This document shows, in pieces, positions 9,806 through 42,203 of a DNA stretch of 64,000 nucleotides. This stretch comes from Verrucomicrobiota bacterium. Lineage in GTDB: Bacteria; Verrucomicrobiota; Verrucomicrobiia; Chthoniobacterales; UBA10450. Within the stretch, counting starts at the first letter, position 1. Every line of letters begins with the position of its first letter. Where the stretch lies: the NCBI GenBank assembly GCA_003219175.1, contig QHPU01000044.1, positions 1 to 64,000 of the forward strand, written 5' to 3'. The position numbers and the translations under genes are program-made. The notes under the pieces are model-generated. The model searched no databases, was not told the origin of the DNA, and was given only the letters and a program-made list of their open reading frames with translations.

Positions 9806-11278
9806 TCAGCTGACAACGACACCGTCAAGCGACGCTCGCACGCTTTCTGCCAGCTGTTCTGGATCGAAAGGTTTCGACAGAAAAGGCAGATCGCTGGCCG
9901 GGGTGTCCAGCGTTATCTCGGGCAAATAGCCGGAGGTGAGCAGAATTTGCGTGGACGGGCTGTTGTTTCGCGTCCAGTCGGCGAAGTCGCATCCACTCAT
10001 ATCAGGCAGCACAACGTCGCTAACGACGAGGTTGACGATGTTGCACTGAATCAAGCGTTTGGCTTCGTCGGCGCGAAATGCTTCCAGGACGTTGTAGCCA
10101 AGCATCCGCAACGTCCGCACCGCGACATGTCTCACGCTGATGTCGTCTTCGACTACTAGGATTGTTTCGGTGCCGCTGGGCAATTTCGGGCGTTTGCGGT
10201 ACGGAGCCGGTGGCGGTGCGACAACCTCCGGGAGATAGATGTACACAGCCGTGCCTTTTCCGAGCTCACTTTCGACAATGATGTGTCCGCCGCTCTGGCG
10301 AACAATTCCATAACACGTAGCCAAGCCGAGGCCGCTGCCGTGGCGATCGTCTTTGGTGGTAAAGAACGGCTCGAACAGATGCTCTTTTACGTCATCCGTC
10401 ATCCCCATGCCGTTATCGATCACGCTGATGCTCACGTATTTTCCGGGCGGCAATTCCACTCGGGACTTGCCATTGCTAGAAATCGGCTCGGTCTTTAGCA
10501 CCAGCATCGAGCGCTCCAGATCATGGATCAGCTTGTTCACGTTCAGCACGCGCGGTTCCAACGGCTCGCGACGACTAAAAGTTAGAAGTTGTTTTGTCAG
10601 TGACGCGGCGCGCCCAGCGGCACTGCGAATCTCACTCAAGTATTTGGCTCCCGTTCCGCGACCCTCGACCTCAGCAACGAGCAGATCACTGTAGCCGAGG
10701 ATCGCGGTCAGGAAGTTGTTGAAATCGTGAGCGACGCCGCCTGCGAGTTGACCGAAGGCTTCCATTTTTTGGGAATGAGAAAGCTGATCATGCAGTTGTT
10801 TGTGCGCGGTCACATCCATCAGCACGCCAATGAACCTCACCGCTCGCCCACTGCGGTCGCGAATAATCAAAGCACGTTCCATTAGCTGGAGATAATGCCC
10901 CTTGGCATGTCGAAAACGATATTCGCCCGACCAATATTCGGCTTTGGATTTGATGGCCTCCCGAATTGACGCCGCAGTACGCGAACGATCCGCCCCATGA
11001 ATCTGCCGTTGCCAGAATGCAATCGTCTGATCTGACTTACCCGGGGAATAACCGAGAAGAGTATCGAGGCCCTGCGGCCAGGTGAGGTCGCCGTTCGCTA
11101 AATTCCAATCCCGAACTGCATCGTTTGTAGCCCGGGCAACCAACTGATGATAATCCGCATCTTGCGTCGAAGCGGTTTTCCGCGGAGTCTTCCGTTGGTT
11201 CTCATTATTTTTCTGTTGGGGGGAAATCTTCGGTTTCCGTTGCCGCGTCTGGATGTGAGATGCCGTAGTTGCTCGCAT
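9806..11278 (-). CDS. Hybrid PAS histidine kinase / response regulator with a deleted ATPase N-box
   Basis: A 490-aa soluble hybrid kinase. A PAS domain lies at about 45-160, the DHp helix with phospho-acceptor H184 (GGVAHDFNN) at 165-245, an ATPase domain at 245-350, and a receiver domain at 370-485 with D421 (VVSDVVLP). The ATPase G1 (DNGMGM), F (FEPFFTTK) and G2 (GSGLGLA) boxes are present. However, the chain passes directly from VNKLIHDLERSML to VLKTEPIS at residues 259/260. Homologues have about 55 residues here, including the N-box (NARDAM type) that binds Mg-ATP. The reading frame is kept, so a receiver-bearing but probably kinase-dead protein would be made. No membrane segment is seen, so the PAS signal is cytoplasmic. 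No cognate regulator gene is adjacent. Confidence 0.85.
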   Translation of the reverse strand: MRATTASHIQTRQRKPKISPQQKNNENQRKTPRKTASTQDADYHQLVARATNDAVRDWNLANGDLTWPQGLDTLLGYSPGKSDQTIAFWQRQIHGADRSRTAASIREAIKSKAEYWSGEYRFRHAKGHYLQLMERALIIRDRSGRAVRFIGVLMDVTAHKQLHDQLSHSQKMEAFGQLAGGVAHDFNNFLTAILGYSDLLVAEVEGRGTGAKYLSEIRSAAGRAASLTKQLLTFSRREPLEPRVLNVNKLIHDLERSMLVLKTEPISSNGKSRVELPPGKYVSISVIDNGMGMTDDVKEHLFEPFFTTKDDRHGSGLGLATCYGIVRQSGGHIIVESELGKGTAVYIYLPEVVAPPPAPYRKRPKLPSGTETILVVEDDISVRHVAVRTLRMLGYNVLEAFRADEAKRLIQCNIVNLVVSDVVLPDMSGCDFADWTRNNSPSTQILLTSGYLPEITLDTPASDLPFLSKPFDPEQLAESVRASLDGVVVS

Positions 11279-14332: not shown

Positions 14333-17254
14333 TCACGCCTTTGCCAGCAGCTGGCGCAGGACGAACTGCAGAATCCCGCCGTGCCGGTAATAATCGACTT
14401 CTATCGCGGTATCGATTCGCAATCTAACGGGAACTGAATCGCTTTTCCCGTTCGCTCGCTCGATCTTTAGGGTCACAGTCATTCCCGGTTCAATTGCATC
14501 AGACAAACCGGTGATCGAAAACGTTTCTGAACCGTCAAGTTTCAAAGTTTGGGCATTTGTGCCTTCGGCAAATTGCAGAGGCAGAACGCCCATGCCGACA
14601 AGATTCGATCGATGGATTCGTTCGAAACTCGAAGCAACGACCGCTTTTACTCCGAGCAATCGCGTTCCCTTTGCCGCCCAATCACGCGATGATCCGGTGC
14701 CATACTCAGTCCCGGCCAAAATCACGAGCGGCACGTTATCTTTTTGATACTTCATGGCAGCCTCATAAATCGACATCTGTTCGCCAGTTGTAGCTGCCGC
14801 TGTCTCAGCGGCAGGATTACCCGATCTGCCGCCAGAGACGGCGGCAGCTACATCCGGTTTTCCATAATATTTCGTTATCCCGCCCTCGGTTCCCGGTACC
14901 ATCAGGTTTTTGATCCGCACGTTGGCAAACGTGCCGCGGGTCATCACCAAATCATTCCCGCGTCGTGAGCCGTAGCTGTTGAAATCCGTCGGCTCAATCC
15001 CGCGCGAAATTAGATACCGCCCGGCGGGTGAGCTCGCCTTGATCGCACCTGCCGGCGAGATGTGATCGGTCGTAACCGAGTCGCCGAAAATCCCCAGCGC
15101 ACGTGCGCCGACGATGTTTTCGATCTTTCCGGCTTTCATCGAGAAATCTTGGAAGAATGGCGGTTCATGAATGTAGTCGCTCTTCTCGTCCCATTGATAA
15201 ATGTCGCCCGTGCTGGCCGGAATTTCGTTCCACTTCGGGTTTTGATCGGCAAAATCGCGATAAAGTTTTCGAAAAACTTCCGGCGCAAGGGCGGATTGCA
15301 TAGCGTCGCGCACTTCGGTCAAGCTGGGCCAGAGGTCCCGCAGAAACGTTTCCTTCCCGTCTTTATCCTTGCCGATAGGTTCTTTAGTCAGGTCGAGATC
15401 GACGCGGCCTGCGAGGGCGAACGCGACAACCAGGGGAGGCGACATCAGGAAATTGGCTTTGATATTCTGGTGAACACGCGCTTCGAAATTACGGTTTCCG
15501 GAAAGGACTGACGCCGCAATCAGATCGTGATCATGAATTGCTTTCTCGATCTTGGGATGGAGTGGACCGGAATTGCCAATGCAGGTAGTACAACCGTATC
15601 CGACAAGGTTGAATCCAAGCTGATCAAGGTATGTTTGCAGTCCAGTTTTCGTTAGGTAATCCGAAACGACCCGTGACCCTGGAGCGAGCGAGGTTTTTAC
15701 TGCGGGATCGACGCGCAGGCCGCGCTCGACCGCCTTTTTCGCCAGCAAACCCGCCGCCAGCATCACGCTTGGATTGCTGGTATTCGTGCAACTGGTGATA
15801 GCCGCGATCAAAACGCTGCCGTGCCCGATCTTGCTTTCGCCGTGACGAAATAGATCGGCCCCTTTCATGTCTTTCGCCCGATCAGGGGTTGGCCGGTTCG
15901 TCACCATTTCGGCTTTGTTAAGTTCTTCGCCCGGATCGATTCCGGGCATGTCGCCATCATCCGGCGCGCTTCCATTTAATTGCACGAGATGTCTGGTCGA
16001 GAGATCGACATTCTCCTTTCCATAGCCGCCGTCCTTAATCGGCTGCTGCAGAAGTGACCGGAAAGTTTGGCCAAGATCGGGAAGATTGATCCGGTCCTGA
16101 GGACGTTTCGGTCCGGCAACGCCCGGCTGCACCTGTCCAAGGTCTAATTGCAGGTCGACGCTATAATCGATTTCGCCCTGGCGCGGCATGCCAAACATTT
16201 TCTGCGCGCGGAAATAATTCTCGAAGGCGGCGCATTGTTCGTCGCTGCGACCAGTTGCGCGCAAATAATTCACCGACTCCTGATCGACCGGGAAATAACC
16301 AATGGTGGCGCCGTATTCCGGCGACATATTTCCGATCGTGGCGCGATCCGGCACTGGCAATGAGGCTGCGCCTTCGCCGTAAAATTCGACGAACTTTCCA
16401 ACGACCTTTTGCGCTCGCAACATCTGGGTGATGTGCAAAACCAGATCGGTTGCCGTGACGCCTTCGCGAAGCTTGCCGGTCAAATGCACTCCGACGACTT
16501 CCGGAGTGAGAAAGTAAACCGGCTGTCCAAGCATCCCGGCTTCCGCTTCGATTCCGCCCACGCCCCAACCAACGACGCCGAGACCATTGATCATGGTGGT
16601 GTGGGAATCGGTTCCGACAAGCGTGTCGGGATAAAAAATTTCTGACTTCTGACCTCCAACCTCTGACTTCTGGCTGAGCACGCCTTTGGCCAGGTACTCG
16701 AGATTAACCTGATGCACGATGCCGATGCCGGGCGGGATTAACTGAAATGTTTTGAACGCTTGCTGGCCCCATTTCAAAAACTGGTAGCGCTCGCGATTAC
16801 GCTTGAACTCCATCTCCAAATTCAATCGCAACGCTTGTGCTGATCCGAAAAAGTCGACCTGCACGCTGTGATCAACCACCAGATCGACCGGGACCAGCGG
16901 CTCGATAATTTTTGGATCGCCAGCGAGGCGTTTCACCGCGCTGCGCATCGCCGCCAGATCAACCACCAGCGGCACACCGGTGAAATCCTGAAGAACAATT
17001 CGCGCAACCACGAAGGGGATCTCTTCGTTGGCCGGCTTCTTTCCGTTCCAATTCGCCAACGTCTCGACGTCCTCACGGCGGACCTTTTTGCCGTCACAAT
17101 TTCGCAGGACCGATTCGAGAACGATTCGAATGCTGATGGGGAGATGAGAAATTTTTCCGACGCCCTGTTTTTCCAGCTCCGGGAGGGAATGGAAAAAACC
17201 TTCGCGGCCTTTTCCAGCATCGAATTCTTGGAGGGTGTTGAATTCGTTATTCAT
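14333..17254 (-). CDS. acnA: Aconitate hydratase A with an embedded palindromic element
   Basis: A 973-aa [4Fe-4S] aconitase interconverting citrate and isocitrate in the TCA cycle. The cluster cysteines are in [12 protein letters not shown] and [13 protein letters not shown], and the swivel domain has [16 protein letters not shown]. It is longer than usual AcnA (about 890-930 aa). Two in-frame stretches explain part of this. Residues 802-822 ([21 protein letters not shown]), between YYGKPD and [10 protein letters not shown] in the swivel domain, are encoded exactly by the palindromic element 14789-14852. Residues about 193-206 ([13 protein letters not shown]), just before [11 protein letters not shown], come from simple-sequence DNA. 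Both sites are surface-loop positions in known aconitases, so the enzyme is probably active. Confidence 0.96.
14789..14852 (-). repeat. TGTAGC palindromic element inside acnA coding sequence
   Basis: A 64-bp palindromic element bounded by TGTAGC and GCTACA, with nested arms GCTGCCGCTGTCTCAGCGGC and GCCGCCAGAGACGGCGGCAGC. In the acnA direction it is read T|GTA|GCT..., which avoids the TAG in TGTAGC, and yields 21 in-frame residues absent from other aconitases. It is nearly identical in reverse complement to 8431-8496 and of equal length, orientation and frame to the putA copy at 40689-40752. Confidence 0.88.
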
Positions 17255-18002: not shown

Positions 18003-18491
18003 ATGGAAGTATTCTGGTGGCTGTTCGCGATCGTGGTAATGGCGCTGGGGTTGATCGGCACCGTCATTCCGATCTTGCCGGGAACGACGATCATATTGGC
18101 GGCAGCGATGGTTCATCGGGTGGCGTTGGGCCCGGATCGAAGCCTTGGCTGGAGTGCCCTCCTTGCGTTGCTTTTGCTGACGCTCTTGACTTACGTGATT
18201 GATGCTGCGGCGGGCTACCTCGGCGCCAAACGTTTCGGCGCAACGAAATGGGGTTTGATTGGCGCCAGCGTTGGCGTGATTGCGGGATTATTCTTTGGTC
18301 TGTTTGGAATTTTTGTTGGGCCGGTAATCGGGGCGATCGCCGGCGAGGTTATTGGCGGGAAAGAGATCGTGAAAGCTGGTCGCGCTGGCTGGGGTACATT
18401 TCTTGGCAGCCTTGCCGGGGTAATCGCAAAGCTTTTCATCGGACTGATCATGATCGTGATTTTTCTGATGAACGTGCCGTCGCCGCTGTAG
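18003..18491 (+). CDS. DUF456 family small membrane protein
   Basis: A 162-aa hydrophobic protein with four or five membrane helices and the glycine-rich repeats typical of DUF456 (GLIGTVIPILPGTTIILAA; GLFFGLFGIFVGPVIGAIAG). It is encoded alone. The stop codon TAG (18489-18491) is the TAG within TGTAGC of a palindromic element that begins at 18487, so the last codons and stop come from the repeat boundary. Function of the family is unknown. Confidence 0.85.
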   Translation: MEVFWWLFAIVVMALGLIGTVIPILPGTTIILAAAMVHRVALGPDRSLGWSALLALLLLTLLTYVIDAAAGYLGAKRFGATKWGLIGASVGVIAGLFFGLFGIFVGPVIGAIAGEVIGGKEIVKAGRAGWGTFLGSLAGVIAKLFIGLIMIVIFLMNVPSPL

Positions 18492-18580
18492 CGGCCGCCG
18501 TCACTCGCGGCCGTTCGATGGTAGGGCGAGACTCTGTCGAGCCGGAAAAAGAGGCGGCTCCGCGGAGCGTCTGCCCTACC
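18487..18580. repeat. Tandem palindromic elements after the DUF456 gene
   Basis: TGTAGCGGCCGCCGTCACTC and GCGGCCG (18487-18513) form one short palindrome with the TGTAGC end. Next to it, GGTAGGGCGAGACTCTGTCG at 18520 pairs with GGAGCGTCTGCCCTACC ending at 18580. The first supplies the stop codon of the DUF456 gene. Confidence 0.7.
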
Positions 18581-21659: not shown

Positions 21660-21831
21660 GACGATCAATGGAAGCGATACGGCGCAAAAGAAATAACGCG
21701 TCGTACCGACGCGCTACAATCTTTCGCGTCTTTGGCGTGTGTAGCGGATCTGCATTTCCTTCATTCGCGTCATCGGTTTGATTTGCGGTTCAATTCCCGG
21801 TTTCGTGAGTCCCGGATTGTGCTAAATTAGG

Positions 21832-22251
21832 ATTGATGGCAGACGGTCGCTGGTGAGTCGTAAGATTCGCCAGAGGAAAGTCCGAACACCATACGGCAGC
21901 ATGCCGCGTAGAATACGCGGGCGGCGTTCTCGAAAGCGACGCTGACGGAAAGTGTCACAGAGAAGATACCGCCGGTTCTTTGAGAAAAGCGCAGGCAAGG
22001 GTGAAAAGGCGAGGTAAGAGCTCACCGCGTCCCGCGTAAGCGGGATGGCAGGAAAAACCCCATGCGGTGCAAGACAAAACAGGAGGAGGACAGCCGGTCC
22101 GCCAATGCCTCGAAGAAATTCGGGGCCGATCTCCGGGTATCGTCGCACCACGCTGTGTGAAAACGCAGTGGGCGTCGAAGAAAATCGATGAGATAAATGA
22201 TCGTCCTGGCTGAGAAATCAGCCGGACAGAATTCGGCTTACCGCCATCAAT
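21832..22251 (+). ncRNA. rnpB: RNase P RNA (type A)
   Basis: This is the catalytic RNA that removes 5' leaders from pre-tRNAs. The conserved 5' core GAGGAAAGTCCGAACACC begins near 21876, and the 3' core ACAGAATTCGGCTTACCG ends near 22244, matching the universal ACAGAA-CGGCTTA block. Helix P1 closes with ATTGATGGC (21832-21840) against GCCATCAAT (22243-22251). Its length of about 420 nt is normal for bacterial type A. ORFs called across it on either strand (for example 21822-22151) are artefacts. A strong terminator follows. Confidence 0.95.
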
Positions 22252-22254
22252 TAT

Positions 22255-22291
22255 GAAGGGCACTTCGGAAACGGAGTGCCCTTCGCTTTTT
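22255..22291 (+). terminator. Rho-independent terminator of rnpB
   Basis: GAAGGGCACTTCG pairs with CGGAGTGCCCTTC around a GAAA-type loop (one G-T pair), followed by GCTTTTT. This is a classical intrinsic terminator placed 4 nt after helix P1 of the RNase P RNA. Confidence 0.9.
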
Positions 22292-25708: not shown

Positions 25709-26248
25709 TTAGGCTGCCGGTCTTAATTTTCGATACATGACATAAACGTCGACGAATCCGTGGCGCCGGTGCCGGAAAGCGCCTGGCAATCTCCCGACGA
25801 TTTTGAATCCGAGGTTCTTCCAGAGGCGGAGCGCAGTCGTATTGGTAGAGACGACGAAATTAAATTGCATTGCGCGATAACCTAGGCGTGTCGCCTCGTG
25901 CAAACAATGTTCAGCCATCCCCCTTCCGATTCCACGACCTTGGGCCCAGGGTGCAACCATGAAGCCGGCATTCGCTACGTGCGACCCCAACCCCGGCTGG
26001 TTGGCCTTGAGAATGTAGCTGCCGACTATTTTCTGCTCAGACAGAGCGACATAGCACCGCGTTTTCGGGCTGAACCAGTAAGCCAGTGCTTGCCGACGGG
26101 AAATGTCCGGATTAAAAGCGTAAGTATCGCGTCGGCTAACGACAGCATGGATGATTTGCCAAATGGCCTCGCGGTCTTTTCCGGTCGCGCGACGGATTCG
26201 CAGCGGTTGTAGCCAGCCGTTGCTCCTTCGGTCACCTGGGCGCGTCAT
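25709..26248 (-). CDS. GNAT family N-acetyltransferase
   Basis: A 179-aa acetyltransferase from ATG 26248; the track ORF starts at 26293. The acetyl-CoA-binding motif A is FMVAPWAQGRGIGRGMAEHC (Q/RxxGxG/A), and the second half MQFNFVVSTNTTALRLWKNLGFKIVG is the typical GNAT motif B. The domain begins at LRIRRATGKDREAIWQII. The acceptor substrate cannot be predicted. It is a single gene between two convergent/divergent small genes. Confidence 0.85.
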   Translation of the reverse strand: MTRPGDRRSNGWLQPLRIRRATGKDREAIWQIIHAVVSRRDTYAFNPDISRRQALAYWFSPKTRCYVALSEQKIVGSYILKANQPGLGSHVANAGFMVAPWAQGRGIGRGMAEHCLHEATRLGYRAMQFNFVVSTNTTALRLWKNLGFKIVGRLPGAFRHRRHGFVDVYVMYRKLRPAA

Positions 26249-26364
26249 CGGAATTTCTGCTGCCAATCTGAGACGATCAGTCCGATTTTCCAAATACCAC
26301 TTCCGTTTTCTTTGCGAACCACAACGGACCGCAGATGCGAAATTAAAGAGGTGAAGGAAATGGC

Positions 26365-26574
26365 ATGAACTTTACAGGAAAAAGCGTCACCTTGATGTTG
26401 CCGGAGATTGGGATGATCGCGCTCACCCGTGGCGCGCTTGGAGTGGGGATCGGTCTTCTCCTTAGCAACAGCTTGGAAAAGGAGGAGCGACAAAGCGCTG
26501 GTCTCGCGCTTCTGGCTGTCGGGGTTTTAACGACAATTCCGCTCCTGTTACGATTGCGTAACGCACTGAAGTAG
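26365..26574 (+). CDS. Small two-helix membrane protein
   Basis: A 69-aa protein with hydrophobic segments at about 22-35 (TRGALGVGIGLLLS) and 47-63 (LALLAVGVLTTIPLLLRL) separated by a charged loop (LEKEERQS). GAGGTGAAGGA lies upstream of the ATG. The pattern resembles small uncharacterised membrane proteins of Acidobacteria and Verrucomicrobia. It ends 54 bp before the TPR protein gene. Function is unknown. Confidence 0.65.
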   Translation: MNFTGKSVTLMLPEIGMIALTRGALGVGIGLLLSNSLEKEERQSAGLALLAVGVLTTIPLLLRLRNALK

Positions 26575-26627: not shown

Positions 26628-27395
26628 ATGCCAATCGCAAAACAAGCCACCACCGATCCCGCGCTCGACGCGCAGGTTTTTTGGTACAAATACCAAAGAG
26701 AAATTGCCATTTTACTCGGACTGGCCGTCCTCGGAATTGTAGGACTGGCAGGCTACCGACTTTATCGAGATCGGCGCGAAATAACCGCGGCAACATTGTT
26801 TTCTGCGGCCAAAACGCCGGCTGCATATGAGGCGCTCATCAATCAGCATAGCGATACAGCGGCAGCTGCCTCCGCATATCTGTTGCTGGCAGACGCGCAG
26901 CGCAAAGATGGAAAGTATGCCGAAGCGAATGCAACGCTGGGGAAATTCCTGGAGAAATTCCCACGGCACGAACTGGCGAACACGGCGCGAATGGCAATGG
27001 CCGCAAACCTGCAGGCGATGGGTAAGGACGACGAAGCTTTTGCCACTTATCAGCAAATTGCATCGGCTAATGTTCCCGGTTTCAATGCCCCGACGGCGTT
27101 GATCGAGCAGGTGCACATTTTGCAGGAGAAGGGCAGGACTGAGGATGCGCGGCGAATCTGCGAGACAATAATGACGCAATATCGCGACAGCTACGCAGCC
27201 ATGGAAGCGAGCCAGTTGCTGCGAACGTTTTTGAAGACGGCGAAGCCGGAAACACCGCCGGTCATCGCGCCACCGAAACCCGGCGCGTCTGCGAGCGCAT
27301 CGGTCCCGCCAACGGTGAAGGTGCTCCCGGCGGCTCCGCCGGCGCCAACCTCTGCCTCAGTCGCGCCTGCGACGCCGCCAAGTGCCAAGCCATAA
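26628..27395 (+). CDS. Membrane-anchored TPR protein (YfgM-like) with Pro/Ala-rich tail
   Basis: A 255-aa protein. A single membrane helix at about 24-42 (ILLGLAVLGIVGLAGYRLY) anchors a tetratricopeptide region (about 50-185) with repeat-like stretches ADAQRKDGKYAEANATLGKF and AANLQAMGKDDEAFATYQQI. The last 50 residues are rich in Ala, Pro and Ser. The overall layout matches YfgM/ancillary SecYEG-translocon TPR proteins. The track start at 26580 lies 16 codons upstream of ATG 26628; the sequence before it is arginine-rich and not family-like. A TGTAGC palindromic element begins two bases after its stop codon. Confidence 0.75.
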   Translation: MPIAKQATTDPALDAQVFWYKYQREIAILLGLAVLGIVGLAGYRLYRDRREITAATLFSAAKTPAAYEALINQHSDTAAAASAYLLLADAQRKDGKYAEANATLGKFLEKFPRHELANTARMAMAANLQAMGKDDEAFATYQQIASANVPGFNAPTALIEQVHILQEKGRTEDARRICETIMTQYRDSYAAMEASQLLRTFLKTAKPETPPVIAPPKPGASASASVPPTVKVLPAAPPAPTSASVAPATPPSAKP

Positions 27396-27396
27396 T

Positions 27397-27466
27397 TGTA
27401 GCCACGGTTAGCGACCGCGGCGCTTTCCCGTTAGATTTGATGCCGCGGCCAGCGACCGCGGCTACA
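27397..27466. repeat. TGTAGC palindromic element filling the gap between convergent genes
   Basis: TGTAGCCACGGTTAGCGACC and its counterpart GGCCAGCGACCGCGGCTACA delimit 70 bp. The TPR gene stops (TAA) at 27395 and rpsI stops at 27470-27472, so the element occupies almost exactly the space between the two stop codons. It may act as a bidirectional end-of-transcript structure. Confidence 0.8.
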
Positions 27467-33750: not shown

Positions 33751-33829
33751 TGTAGCCGCGGTCGCTCGCCGCGGCCTTGGGCCCGTGGCCGGAGGCTAAA
33801 CAGATCCGCGGTCGATGGCCGCGGCTACA
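33751..33829. repeat. TGTAGC palindromic element providing the fmt stop codon
   Basis: TGTAGCCGCGGTCGCTCGCC (33751) pairs with GGTCGATGGCCGCGGCTACA (ending 33829). In the fmt direction the outer sequence is TTG TAG CCGCGG, so the fmt stop codon at 33825-33827 is the TAG of the element terminus. Confidence 0.82.
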
Positions 33830-34766
33830 ATGAAGCAACCCGCGGGTGCCCGCGCAGAAATTCTGCCGCGCTCATTCGCCGTTTTCCTTCGAGTTGAATT
33901 TCATCGAGCGACAAGGCGTCCTTTCCGGCAGCGACGACTAACTCGTTTTCAGCCGCCAGAATTTCGCCAGGGTTTCCACTACGATCGACAATCGTTGCCC
34001 GAAAAATCTTAAGTTTGCGATCGCCGAAATTCATGAAGGCACCCGGCCAAGGGTTGAACGCGCGAATTTTTCGTTCGATCGCGGCCGCCGGCTCGTTCCA
34101 ATCGATCCGGCCGTCTTCGCGTTCGAGTTTCGGTGCGTAGGTTGCAAGTTGGCTCTCTTGTGTAGTGCGAGATGCGCCTCCTCTCGCGAGGAGCGAAATA
34201 GCCTCTCGCAAAGACTCGGGCGCAATTTCCGCCAGCCTGCCGTGCAGAGAACCGCCCGTCTCAGTCGGCGCGATTTCGATTTTTTTCGCGAGCAAAATGT
34301 CGCCGGTATCAAGACCTTGGTCCATGTACATAACGGTGATCCCGGTTTCGCGATCACCCGCGGCGATCGCCGCTTGGATTGGGGCCGCACCGCGCCAATG
34401 CGGCAAAATCGATGCGTGCAAATTGAGGCATGCGATCTTTGGAATTTCGAGCACTTCGCGTGGAAGAATTTGCCCGTAGGCCATTACGACAATCACATCC
34501 GGATTCAGAATCCGTATTGCCTCAATCGCTTCTCGCGCCTTGATCCGGGCCGGCTGGAAAACCGGCAATTTGATTTCAGATGCCCCGGACGCGACGCTCA
34601 ATTGTTGACTTGCTGCTTTGATGGGAGGCGGCGTGAGTTTCTGATCGCGACCGACGGGTTTGTCTGGTTGAGTGACGATACCGACCAGCTGATGCTCGCG
34701 CCATTCGCGGAGCATTCGCAATGTCGGCACGGCGATATCACCCGTGCCGATAAAAACGATCCGCAT
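33825..34766 (-). CDS. fmt: Methionyl-tRNA formyltransferase
   Basis: A 313-aa enzyme formylating initiator Met-tRNA with 10-formyltetrahydrofolate. The start MRIVFIGTGDIAVPTLR, the core INLHASILPHWRGAAPIQ-like block (CLNLHASILPHWRGAAPIQAAI) and the metal/folate-site AYGQILP are present, and the C-terminal RKIRAFNPWPGAF follows. A 12-residue Ser/Gln-rich stretch (QQLSVASGASEI, about 53-64) before LPVFQPARIK is not usual. Its stop codon lies within a palindromic element. It is the last gene of the adk-Zn-ribbon-fmt cluster. Confidence 0.94.
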   Translation of the reverse strand: MRIVFIGTGDIAVPTLRMLREWREHQLVGIVTQPDKPVGRDQKLTPPPIKAASQQLSVASGASEIKLPVFQPARIKAREAIEAIRILNPDVIVVMAYGQILPREVLEIPKIACLNLHASILPHWRGAAPIQAAIAAGDRETGITVMYMDQGLDTGDILLAKKIEIAPTETGGSLHGRLAEIAPESLREAISLLARGGASRTTQESQLATYAPKLEREDGRIDWNEPAAAIERKIRAFNPWPGAFMNFGDRKLKIFRATIVDRSGNPGEILAAENELVVAAGKDALSLDEIQLEGKRRMSAAEFLRGHPRVASL

Positions 34767-39035: not shown

Positions 39036-42000
39036 TCAGCGCGGAGGCCAGAGAAATTCGGCGCGACGTTCGGGAGTGACTTCAGGCGCGAAACCGTGGC
39101 GCATGATATTTTCCGTAACGACACGCGGGACGAGGAAGTTGAGGAGGTAATCGCTACCACCGGCTTTGGTGCCGCCGCCACTCATTTTGAATCCGCCAAA
39201 GGGATGACGACCAACCACGGCGCCGGTGCAGGAGCGATTGACGTAAACGTTCCCCGCAACGAGTTCGGCTTTGATCCGCTCGATGTTGGCGGGACTGCGT
39301 GAGAAAAATCCGGCTGTCAGCGCGTAATCGGTATCGTTAGCGATTCTGATCGCGTCGTCGAGATCGCGCGCTTTCAATACACTCAACACAGGACCAAAGA
39401 TTTCACATTGGCTGAGTGTCATCTCCGGTTTCACATCGGTAAAAATTGTCGGCGGAATAAAATAGCCTTTGTCCGGAATGTCGGTGGCTTGGAACGCCAG
39501 CGTCGCTTCGGTTTTCCCCTTCTCGATGATTTCCTGAATTCGATGGTACGCAGTCTCATCGATCACAGGACCGACGATGATTCCCGGTTGTTCGGGATTA
39601 CCAACGCGCAGACTGGCAGCAGCCGTGAGCAATCGATGCATCACGCGTTCATAATTTTCCTCCAGCACGATGAGACGCGAACAGGCGGAACATTTCTGCC
39701 CCTGATAACCGAAAGCCGAGTAGATCGTATCGACAATGGTTTCATCGAGATCGGCGTCAGAATCGACAATGACGGCGTTCTTCCCGCCCATCTCGCAGAC
39801 GACGCGCTTGAGCTCGCGCTGGCCCAGGCGGGTTTTGCCGGCCGATTCCCAAATTCGCAGACCGACTTCGCGTGACCCGGTAAATGCGATCATTTCTACG
39901 TCGGGATGATCGACGAGGTATGCGCCGATGACAGAACCGCGACCGTGCAGACAATTCAAAACTCCCGGTGGAACGCCTGCTTCCTGAAAAACTTCCATCA
40001 AGAGTGAGCCAAGGATGGCCGACGGCTCGGCCGGTTTCATGATGACGGCATTGCCCGTAACGAGTGCGGCGGTGACCATTCCGCAGAGAATCGCGACGGG
40101 GAAATTCCACGGCGCGACGACGAGCGCGACGCCTCGCGGCCAGTAATGCTGATAGCTTTCCTCGCCGGGCACATTTTGCGTCAGGCGAGGATATCCGATG
40201 AGACGCATTTGCTCCGCGTAGAAAAGGCAAAAATCCATCGCCTCGCGGATGTCGCCGTCAGCTTCGGCCCACGCTTTGCCGACTTCGAAAACTTCAACAG
40301 CGGAAAGTTCGAAACGGCGTCGGTCGAGAATTGCGGCCGCGCGCTCGAGTAACCGGCAGCGCTCTTCCAGCGGTGTGCGCGCCCATGTTTCAAAAGCGCG
40401 CCGCGCCGCTTTCACTGCACGTTCAGCCTCGGGAATCCCGGCCTCGGCGACATAACCAATGATTTCGGCTGGCGCGCTCGGATTCACCGACTTCAGGAGC
40501 TTGTCGGTCCAAATTTCTTTCCCATCGATCACCAAAGGGTGTTTCTGTCCGAAATGCGCTCGCACCTCGCGCAGCGCAGTGCGCATTTTTTCCTGAGATT
40601 CCGGTAGGACGAAATTGACGAGCGAAGCGTTTTTGTAAGAGTCGCCCGGCGGCGCCTCCGGTGTGGCGCCGTTGCGCGAGAAATCGGCTGTAGCGGCGGC
40701 CGTGTCGGCCGCAAAATCATCCGTCGGTGCAGCCGACACGGCTGCCTCTACAGCGCCATTCAGCAGCTCCCGCGGATCGCGCAGTAATTGCGTCGCCGAA
40801 ACATGCTCGGAAAATTTTGCCCGTAAAAATCCTTCGTTCGACGTGTTTTCAAGGAGCCGCCGCACCAAATACGACATGCCGGGCAGCAGTTCGCCGACCG
40901 GTGAATACTCGCGGACGCGATAACCCATATCGACGAGTGCGCGTTTGATCGGCCCTGCCATTCCGTAGAGGAATTGAAATTCGAAACGGCTACGATCAAT
41001 CTGGAGCTCTTCCGCCACGGCCTGCGCGTAAGCGATGCTGCGGACATTGTGGGAACCGAACGCCGAGGTCACAATCGACTCGTTCTCGAGCAGGATGCGG
41101 GTGAGTCTTTCGAAATTGGCGTCGCTCTCTGGCTTTTGCAGCCAGACCGGAATGACCCAGCCGTTTTGCGTCGATTTTATTTTTTCGTAGTCCCAATAGG
41201 CGCCTTTGACGAGCCGAACGGTGAACCGTGTTCCGCGCGCCCGTCCCCATGCAATCAAATCACGCAGATCAGTTTCGGCGTCGCGCAGGTAAGCCTGAAT
41301 CACGATGCCAGCGTGCGGCCAGTCGTAAAACTCCGACTCCGTGAAAAGCGTGCGAAAGAGTTCGACCGTCGCGTTTTTGTGCGCATAGCTTTCCATGTCG
41401 AAATTGATGAAAGCGCCAAGCTCTTTGGCGCGGTGCAAGATTGGCCGCAGCTTCGGAGCGAGATGCGCGAGGGCGTCGGCCGGATCGGCCGGATTCATTT
41501 GCGAATAGAGCGCCGAAATTTTTACGGAGACATTTACGACGGGGAAGAGCTCGAAGTTCTTGCCGAGCGGATCGGTCCAGCCGCGAGTTTCGCGAGCGAG
41601 ATGCTCGAGTAATTCCTGGCAACGTCCCATGTATTCGGCAGCTTCCTCTTCGCTAACGACAGCTTCGCCGAGCAGGTCGACGGTAAATCCGATTCCCTGC
41701 CGCCGCTTCTTGCGCAACGTCTTCATCACATCCTCGGGATTGCGTCCGGCGATGAACTGCCGCGCCATCCCCGAAACGTTCCAGCGCAGAAATTTGCCGC
41801 TAATGATTGGTACGATGCGCGCCAAGGAGACACCGGTGCGGATTAGCGGCGTATAGCCATTGCGCATGTCGGCGAAATATTCGTCAAGATGCTGCACGAT
41901 ATCAGAGCCGCGACGCAGCGAAGCGAGAACGTCGACGAACCGGAACATTTGTACTTTGAAATGTTCATCACGCATCGAGAACTCCATCATGCGCTGATAG

Positions 42001-42095
42001 AAACCGGCCTTGCTGAAAATCGATTCCGGGTGGCGATCCACCAGGTCAAAGATTTGCATGCCGCGGCGCTCGACCTCGGCTTGGATGGGACTCAT
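39036..42095 (-). CDS. putA: Bifunctional proline dehydrogenase / glutamate-semialdehyde dehydrogenase with embedded palindrome
   Basis: A 1019-aa PutA from ATG 42095 that oxidises proline to glutamate. The FAD proline dehydrogenase barrel spans about 95-430 (VKISALYSQ, VRLVKGAYWDYE, QFLYGMAG) and the aldehyde dehydrogenase about 500-1000, with catalytic Cys in GQKCSACSR and Glu in VCEMGGKN. Residues 449-469 (VEAAVSAAPTDDFAADTAAAT), in the linker between the domains, are encoded exactly by the palindromic element 40689-40752. A Pro/Gly/Asn-rich piece follows. No N-terminal DNA-binding domain is present, so it is not a PutA-type repressor. The linker insertion should be tolerated. Confidence 0.95.
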   Translation of the reverse strand: MSPIQAEVERRGMQIFDLVDRHPESIFSKAGFYQRMMEFSMRDEHFKVQMFRFVDVLASLRRGSDIVQHLDEYFADMRNGYTPLIRTGVSLARIVPIISGKFLRWNVSGMARQFIAGRNPEDVMKTLRKKRRQGIGFTVDLLGEAVVSEEEAAEYMGRCQELLEHLARETRGWTDPLGKNFELFPVVNVSVKISALYSQMNPADPADALAHLAPKLRPILHRAKELGAFINFDMESYAHKNATVELFRTLFTESEFYDWPHAGIVIQAYLRDAETDLRDLIAWGRARGTRFTVRLVKGAYWDYEKIKSTQNGWVIPVWLQKPESDANFERLTRILLENESIVTSAFGSHNVRSIAYAQAVAEELQIDRSRFEFQFLYGMAGPIKRALVDMGYRVREYSPVGELLPGMSYLVRRLLENTSNEGFLRAKFSEHVSATQLLRDPRELLNGAVEAAVSAAPTDDFAADTAAATADFSRNGATPEAPPGDSYKNASLVNFVLPESQEKMRTALREVRAHFGQKHPLVIDGKEIWTDKLLKSVNPSAPAEIIGYVAEAGIPEAERAVKAARRAFETWARTPLEERCRLLERAAAILDRRRFELSAVEVFEVGKAWAEADGDIREAMDFCLFYAEQMRLIGYPRLTQNVPGEESYQHYWPRGVALVVAPWNFPVAILCGMVTAALVTGNAVIMKPAEPSAILGSLLMEVFQEAGVPPGVLNCLHGRGSVIGAYLVDHPDVEMIAFTGSREVGLRIWESAGKTRLGQRELKRVVCEMGGKNAVIVDSDADLDETIVDTIYSAFGYQGQKCSACSRLIVLEENYERVMHRLLTAAASLRVGNPEQPGIIVGPVIDETAYHRIQEIIEKGKTEATLAFQATDIPDKGYFIPPTIFTDVKPEMTLSQCEIFGPVLSVLKARDLDDAIRIANDTDYALTAGFFSRSPANIERIKAELVAGNVYVNRSCTGAVVGRHPFGGFKMSGGGTKAGGSDYLLNFLVPRVVTENIMRHGFAPEVTPERRAEFLWPPR
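40689..40752 (-). repeat. TGTAGC palindromic element inside putA coding sequence
   Basis: A 64-bp palindrome with TGTAGC and TCTACA ends and arms GGCGGCCGTGTCGGCCGC and GCAGCCGACACGGCTGCC. Read on the minus strand as T|GTA|GAG..., it adds 21 residues to PutA. Length, orientation relative to the gene and reading phase are identical to the acnA copy, and the peptides align (VxAAVS...AA[ED]TAAAT). Confidence 0.88.
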
Positions 42096-42203
42096 GCTCG
42101 ACTGTAAACCGCGCCTCGCCGTTGGCAAAGCCGCGACTGATCAAACGTCCGCCGCTGATTACGCGATTGCTCGAAGGATGAAACTCGGGTAGCGACTCCA
42201 TAA

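Follow-up and report, generated by a model that had tools for sequence, protein, structure and literature searches.

GTAG-tagged REPs supply the TAG stop codons of some genes in a Verrucomicrobiota genome

The mobile hairpin repeat in the genome of this Verrucomicrobiota bacterium is a GTAG-tagged REP (repetitive extragenic palindrome), and at some gene ends the TAG of its terminus is the stop codon. At conserved positions, namely the ends of the genes for a DUF456 protein, a DDAH-like protein, ribosomal protein L2 and an unnamed protein (locus L144), the REP swaps the stop codon without moving it. The phase in which the REP is read sets the outcome, which is an immediate stop, a stop some five codons further on, or a frame that stays open. 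Stop donation has been described before in other bacteria, where GTAG REP termini often supply the TAG stop of flanking ORFs; intragenic GTAG REPs were most numerous in the verrucomicrobium Opitutus terrae (Di Nocera et al. 2013, PMC3733652). It is a phenomenon known since 2013 and now seen in a new lineage, and what is added here is that protein ends were compared between genomes that have the REP and genomes that lack it. Below, ‘the window’ refers to the 64,000-nucleotide stretch of DNA that was analyzed, and G000 to the source genome.

In the REP terminus, GTAG precedes a hairpin whose stem is mostly 8 bp long and whose loop is mostly 3 nt; several stem sequences occur. TGTAGC is found 25 times in the window, compared with 11.1 expected from shuffles, and TGTAGC..GCTACA occurs exactly at 28 places in the genome. 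A strong hairpin follows GTAG in 8% of cases, about 10 times the rate for control tetranucleotides (~0.7%), and the stems covary (13 double-change cells vs. 4.3 when shuffled). With a covariance model built on the 8-bp/3-nt type alone, about 90 hairpins of that type were detected in the 3.24-Mb genome, where further stem types are also present. The arms often stand in inverted pairs, the spacers of which are variable; a REPIN is defined by a conserved spacer and a pair moving as a unit. In the Rfam search, the element matched no named RNA family; the one match was to RNase P at another place (class A RNA gene, window 21,831–22,256).

The base preceding GTAG is almost always T, partly by construction because the search model ascertains it, and in 70 of 81 cases that base is itself preceded by C or T. 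The dinucleotide before GTAGC is CT in 45 and TT in 25 of 87. Like the published GTAG-tagged REPs (PMC3733652), these repeats have GTAG at the foot of a 6–9 bp palindrome, form inverted dimers, fall into several families per genome, lie at 3′ ends and inside genes, and have the terminal TAG serving as an ORF stop. Their stem sequences are those of this lineage and may differ from those of the O. terrae families.

In the window, the fmt and DUF456 genes end within REP termini. A 79-bp inverted REP pair (33,751–33,829) lies between fmt and the downstream gene, with arms at 33,751–33,774 (plus strand) and 33,806–33,829 (minus strand). The fmt gene, encoding a methionyl-tRNA formyltransferase of 313 aa (33,825–34,766, minus strand; Pfam formyltransferase), ends with TCA TTG TAG CC, and its stop (33,825–33,827, minus strand) is contained in the REP terminus at 33,824–33,829. 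The DUF456 gene (162 aa; 18,003–18,491, plus strand) ends with CCG CTG TAG CGG, and its stop (18,489–18,491, plus strand) is contained in the terminus of a single GTAG REP arm (GTAGCGGCCGCCGTCACTCGCGGCCG; 18,487–18,514, plus strand), the inverted partner of which is gone. Both stops had been read in the preliminary description as the TAG of a TGTAGC terminus, and both readings agree with the sequence. The possibility that the DUF456 element is a copy of the fmt pair was rejected, as it is a single arm with a different stem type. Directly behind it is a pair of a second repeat family, of GTAGGGC type (GTAGGGCGAGAC...CTGCCCTACC; 18,521–18,580). A GTAGGGCGAGAC-type pair is also found at this place in congener G005, without the DUF456 REP.

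Stop donation was counted genome-wide, across the window and about 80 stretches that contain REPs, by measuring the offset from the gene stop to the REP TAG. We called the genes ourselves, scoring codon usage after training on the window; the loci were picked for holding REPs, and a few of the arms are chance hairpins. Among about 122 REP arms, eight gene ends are at offset 0: those of DUF456, gluQ, a molybdopterin oxidoreductase, the DDAH-like protein, lspA, cca, rplB (ribosomal protein L2) and the L144 protein. The fmt arm is below the hairpin threshold of the table, and fmt is counted as the ninth. We assigned the names gluQ, lspA, cca, rplB and treY (below) by reading the protein sequences, without a Pfam call, and they are presumptive. 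Ten arms are spread over offsets −1 to −20 and one is at +13; against the ten, the eight at offset 0 give a Poisson P of about 1e-7.

For most of the 122 arms there is no nearby stop on the same strand, and many REPs lie 5–14 nt behind stops. The REP pair at 27,397–27,466, for example, stands just after the TAA stop (27,393–27,395) of a TPR-protein gene and donates none; as this TAA is intact, not all 3′-end copies donate stops. The preliminary description would count its reading as refuted if the stop position were unrelated to the element in most other copies. In the distance table, most copies set no stop, and donation is a minority fate of REP arms (9 gene ends among ~122). REPs near gene ends are the stop in 8 of 28 cases and GTAGs lacking a hairpin in 34 of 86 (Fisher p = 0.37), making no enrichment. 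Because hairpin-less GTAGs are the stop as often, the coincidence of stop and REP is remarkable only if an insertion is assumed.

REPs could also be retained by selection for a hairpin right behind the stop, for mRNA 3′ protection or termination, with the TAG overlap as a by-product. Gene-near REPs of the source genome do lie mostly behind 3′ ends, as in other species (PMC3733652), and sometimes inside ORFs. However, many copies are far from any 3′ end, and hairpins come right after other stop types in only 4 of 279 cases compared with 8 of 42 for GTAG stops (at loci chosen for GTAG hairpins), so that we hold this explanation to be very improbable.

Protein ends were then compared between REP-bearing and REP-less relatives. 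At the DUF456 gene, the REP with CTG TAG is present in the source genome and its nearest relative, G004. Seven REP-less congeners have the same length and the same Leu end with TGA or TAA, as TTG TGA (G005, G001, G007), TTA TAA (G008, G010), TTG TAA (G002) or TTA TGA (G003). The DDAH-like protein ends with the same Leu in REP-less G012 (CTT TAG), G018 (CTC TGA) and G004 (CTT TGA), and so does the L144 protein in REP-less G008 and G010 (CTT TAA, CTG TAA). The product of rplB is 279–283 aa within the genus. In G009 and G004, the same REP pair stands behind a TGA (GTG TGA TGTAGCC in G009), whereas the source genome reads GTG TAG CC and lacks 5 bp relative to them, probably by later deletion. The rplB pair (L133:1312, on contig C106 of G000) separates rplB from the gene that follows it in the ribosomal protein operon.

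At the fmt gene, the comparison is mixed. The REP pair with TAG is common to seven genus members including the source genome, and is decayed in G004, which has TAA. Fmt of the REP-less congeners G001 and G006 has a tail about 16 aa longer, but in REP-less G016 the protein stops at the equivalent Leu (TTG TAA). In G007 and G013 (L036, L027), a TGA stop of fmt is supplied by another repeat, beginning GTCATCCTGA.

It had been proposed that insertion at gene ends trims the C-terminus, to be checked on Fmt and the DUF456 protein against element-free relatives. The check leaves four proteins (DUF456, DDAH-like, L2 and L144) with unchanged ends and therefore unshortened, and Fmt undecided between its longer and its equivalent relatives. 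For REP insertion in the TAG phase within the coding end to shorten proteins, the longer Fmt tails would be the best case, together with gluQ and cca, which are up to 2–4 residues shorter than some relatives. Yet most relatives differ from cca, gluQ and the molybdopterin protein by 0 to 4 residues, lspA is not shortened, its tail being if anything longer than in most relatives, and neither the four unchanged ends nor the G016 Fmt fits. Trimming is thus improbable as a general account.

The stop is swapped rather than moved, probably because the REP joins after CT or TT and rebuilds a terminal Leu codon as Leu-TAG. In this scheme, RAYT (TnpA-REP, HUH tyrosine) transposases would mobilize the REP, itself a non-autonomous hairpin, and host DNA would be joined to it with CT or TT immediately before the junction. 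If a terminal Leu codon (CTN or TTR) were split behind its second base, the insertion would regenerate CTG or TTG, followed by TAG at the old stop position. Other copies would reach the stop-TAG state later, by small deletions, probably as in rplB, or by loss of the upstream stop. We consider this scheme, together with the phase-dependent outcomes, rather probable as a whole. The anatomy of the element, the swap at conserved positions, the phase outcomes and the presence of RAYTs are read directly from the sequences, whereas it is inferred that a RAYT transposed the REP and that a Leu codon was what it entered.

The Leu route fits the DUF456, DDAH-like and L144 proteins. It fits only some of the donated stops, as the REP-less relatives of lspA, cca, gluQ and the molybdopterin protein do not end in Leu there. 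TnpA-REP enzymes cut at CT, and the group 3 REPs of S. maltophilia consist of GTAG, an 8-bp stem and a 3-nt loop (PMC8266576). The present repeats resemble these REPtrons in the group 3 shape, in the CT beside GTAG and in RAYTs with REP flanks. They differ in the RAYTs, several of which look broken or incomplete and two of which are open within host genes. Joining at TT counts against the scheme, since TT is frequent in the flanks though S. maltophilia TnpA does not cut it (PMC8266576).

The same end state could arise if REPs simply land behind genes, and stop loss or small deletions later make the REP TAG the first in-frame stop, which is harmless and so accumulates. The rplB alleles are as expected from such a back-up stop, as are the lspA tail exceeding most relatives and the REPs 5–14 nt past stops. 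This course alone, however, fails to predict the same Leu ends in the REP-less relatives of the DUF456, DDAH-like and L144 genes, and as the sole explanation it is somewhat unlikely. Returning to insertion at terminal Leu codons, the end of the L144 gene in congeners G005, G006 and G009 and in family member G014 carries GTAG-starting inverted repeats of different stem types. The GTAG tag and CT/TT joining together could make terminal-Leu insertion exactly silent, and terminal Leu codons could then be safe harbours hit repeatedly by different REP families, as at the L144 codon in these four relatives. We offer this extension tentatively, as a possibility.

In genes, the same terminus is read differently. 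REP pairs are embedded in frame in the aconitase gene acnA (14,789–14,852, reading GTA GCT) and in putA (40,689–40,752 in an ORF at 39,036–42,128, minus strand, reading GTA GAG), where the pair encodes VEAAVSAA...TAAA. These are the two embedded copies that the preliminary description had reported to read GTA, and its view that one terminus is stop or coding depending on phase holds more widely. Among 12 same-strand REP arms inside genes, 11 read in-frame GTA, one is in phase 1 and none is in phase 2, compared with TAG at the nine gene ends. In the open phase, the REP adds Val-Ala-Ala-type peptides. In phase 1, common REP stems run into TGA across the loop, and treY (L079) is ended by such a TGA, at offset +13. 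The gluQ gene (L089, G000:C16) seems to hold an in-frame REP pair (LVAAVSAAG...GTAAVAAHW) in addition to its REP-donated stop. Rickettsia palindromic elements are likewise palindromes tolerated in frame inside protein genes, with a different tag and sequence.

RAYTs are present in the source genome, with Y1_Tnp matches and a match to the NCBIfam REP transposase model NF047646 at 82.9 bits (cut-off 80). RAYT genes there carry REP flanks; several copies look broken or incomplete, and two open ones are in frame within host genes. First, a complete RAYT lies between the two halves of the RecG helicase domain in an intact 913-aa ORF (L019:211-2952; G000:C106, around 26212-26445), flanked by REP-encoded residues (GSARVSRV, RDAETSTRDARATQ). 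An inverted repeat of the same type as its flanking REPs (GGTAGCATGCGCGTCTCGCG...) occurs in the window at 932–1,077. Second, carB (carbamoyl-phosphate synthase large subunit; L016:1-3225, G000:C63, around 11023-11247) has an in-frame RAYT-like stretch without stops, which scores 62.8 bits, below the cut-off of 80.

The same in-frame RecG-RAYT is present in about 20 related MAGs (L264–L283; Chthoniobacterales and unclassified Verrucomicrobia), and RecG lacks the RAYT in L285 and L286. The related copies keep the HUH motif (MPDHVH in most; not L276) and the catalytic-type Tyr. Where dS is unsaturated, the dN/dS of the embedded RAYT is ~0.02–0.10, similar to that of RecG itself. In these roughly 20 related genomes, purifying selection maintains the RAYT within RecG. 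In the tree, the embedded RAYTs split into two separate groups, a pattern that suggests replacement, or two entries into one recG site. The protein is possibly a domesticated helicase-HUH nuclease fusion; its AlphaFold model has a pLDDT of 51 and a pTM of 0.33. A full-text literature search found no paper on a RAYT inside RecG.

A silent swap would explain why a mobile repeat does no harm at the stops of essential genes (fmt, rplB), correcting the idea of trimming. It also gives a testable rule, in which the phase of one tetranucleotide leads to a silent stop swap, a short tail or an in-frame peptide insertion. The RAYT domain retained in the RecG helicase may be a more important lead than stop donation.
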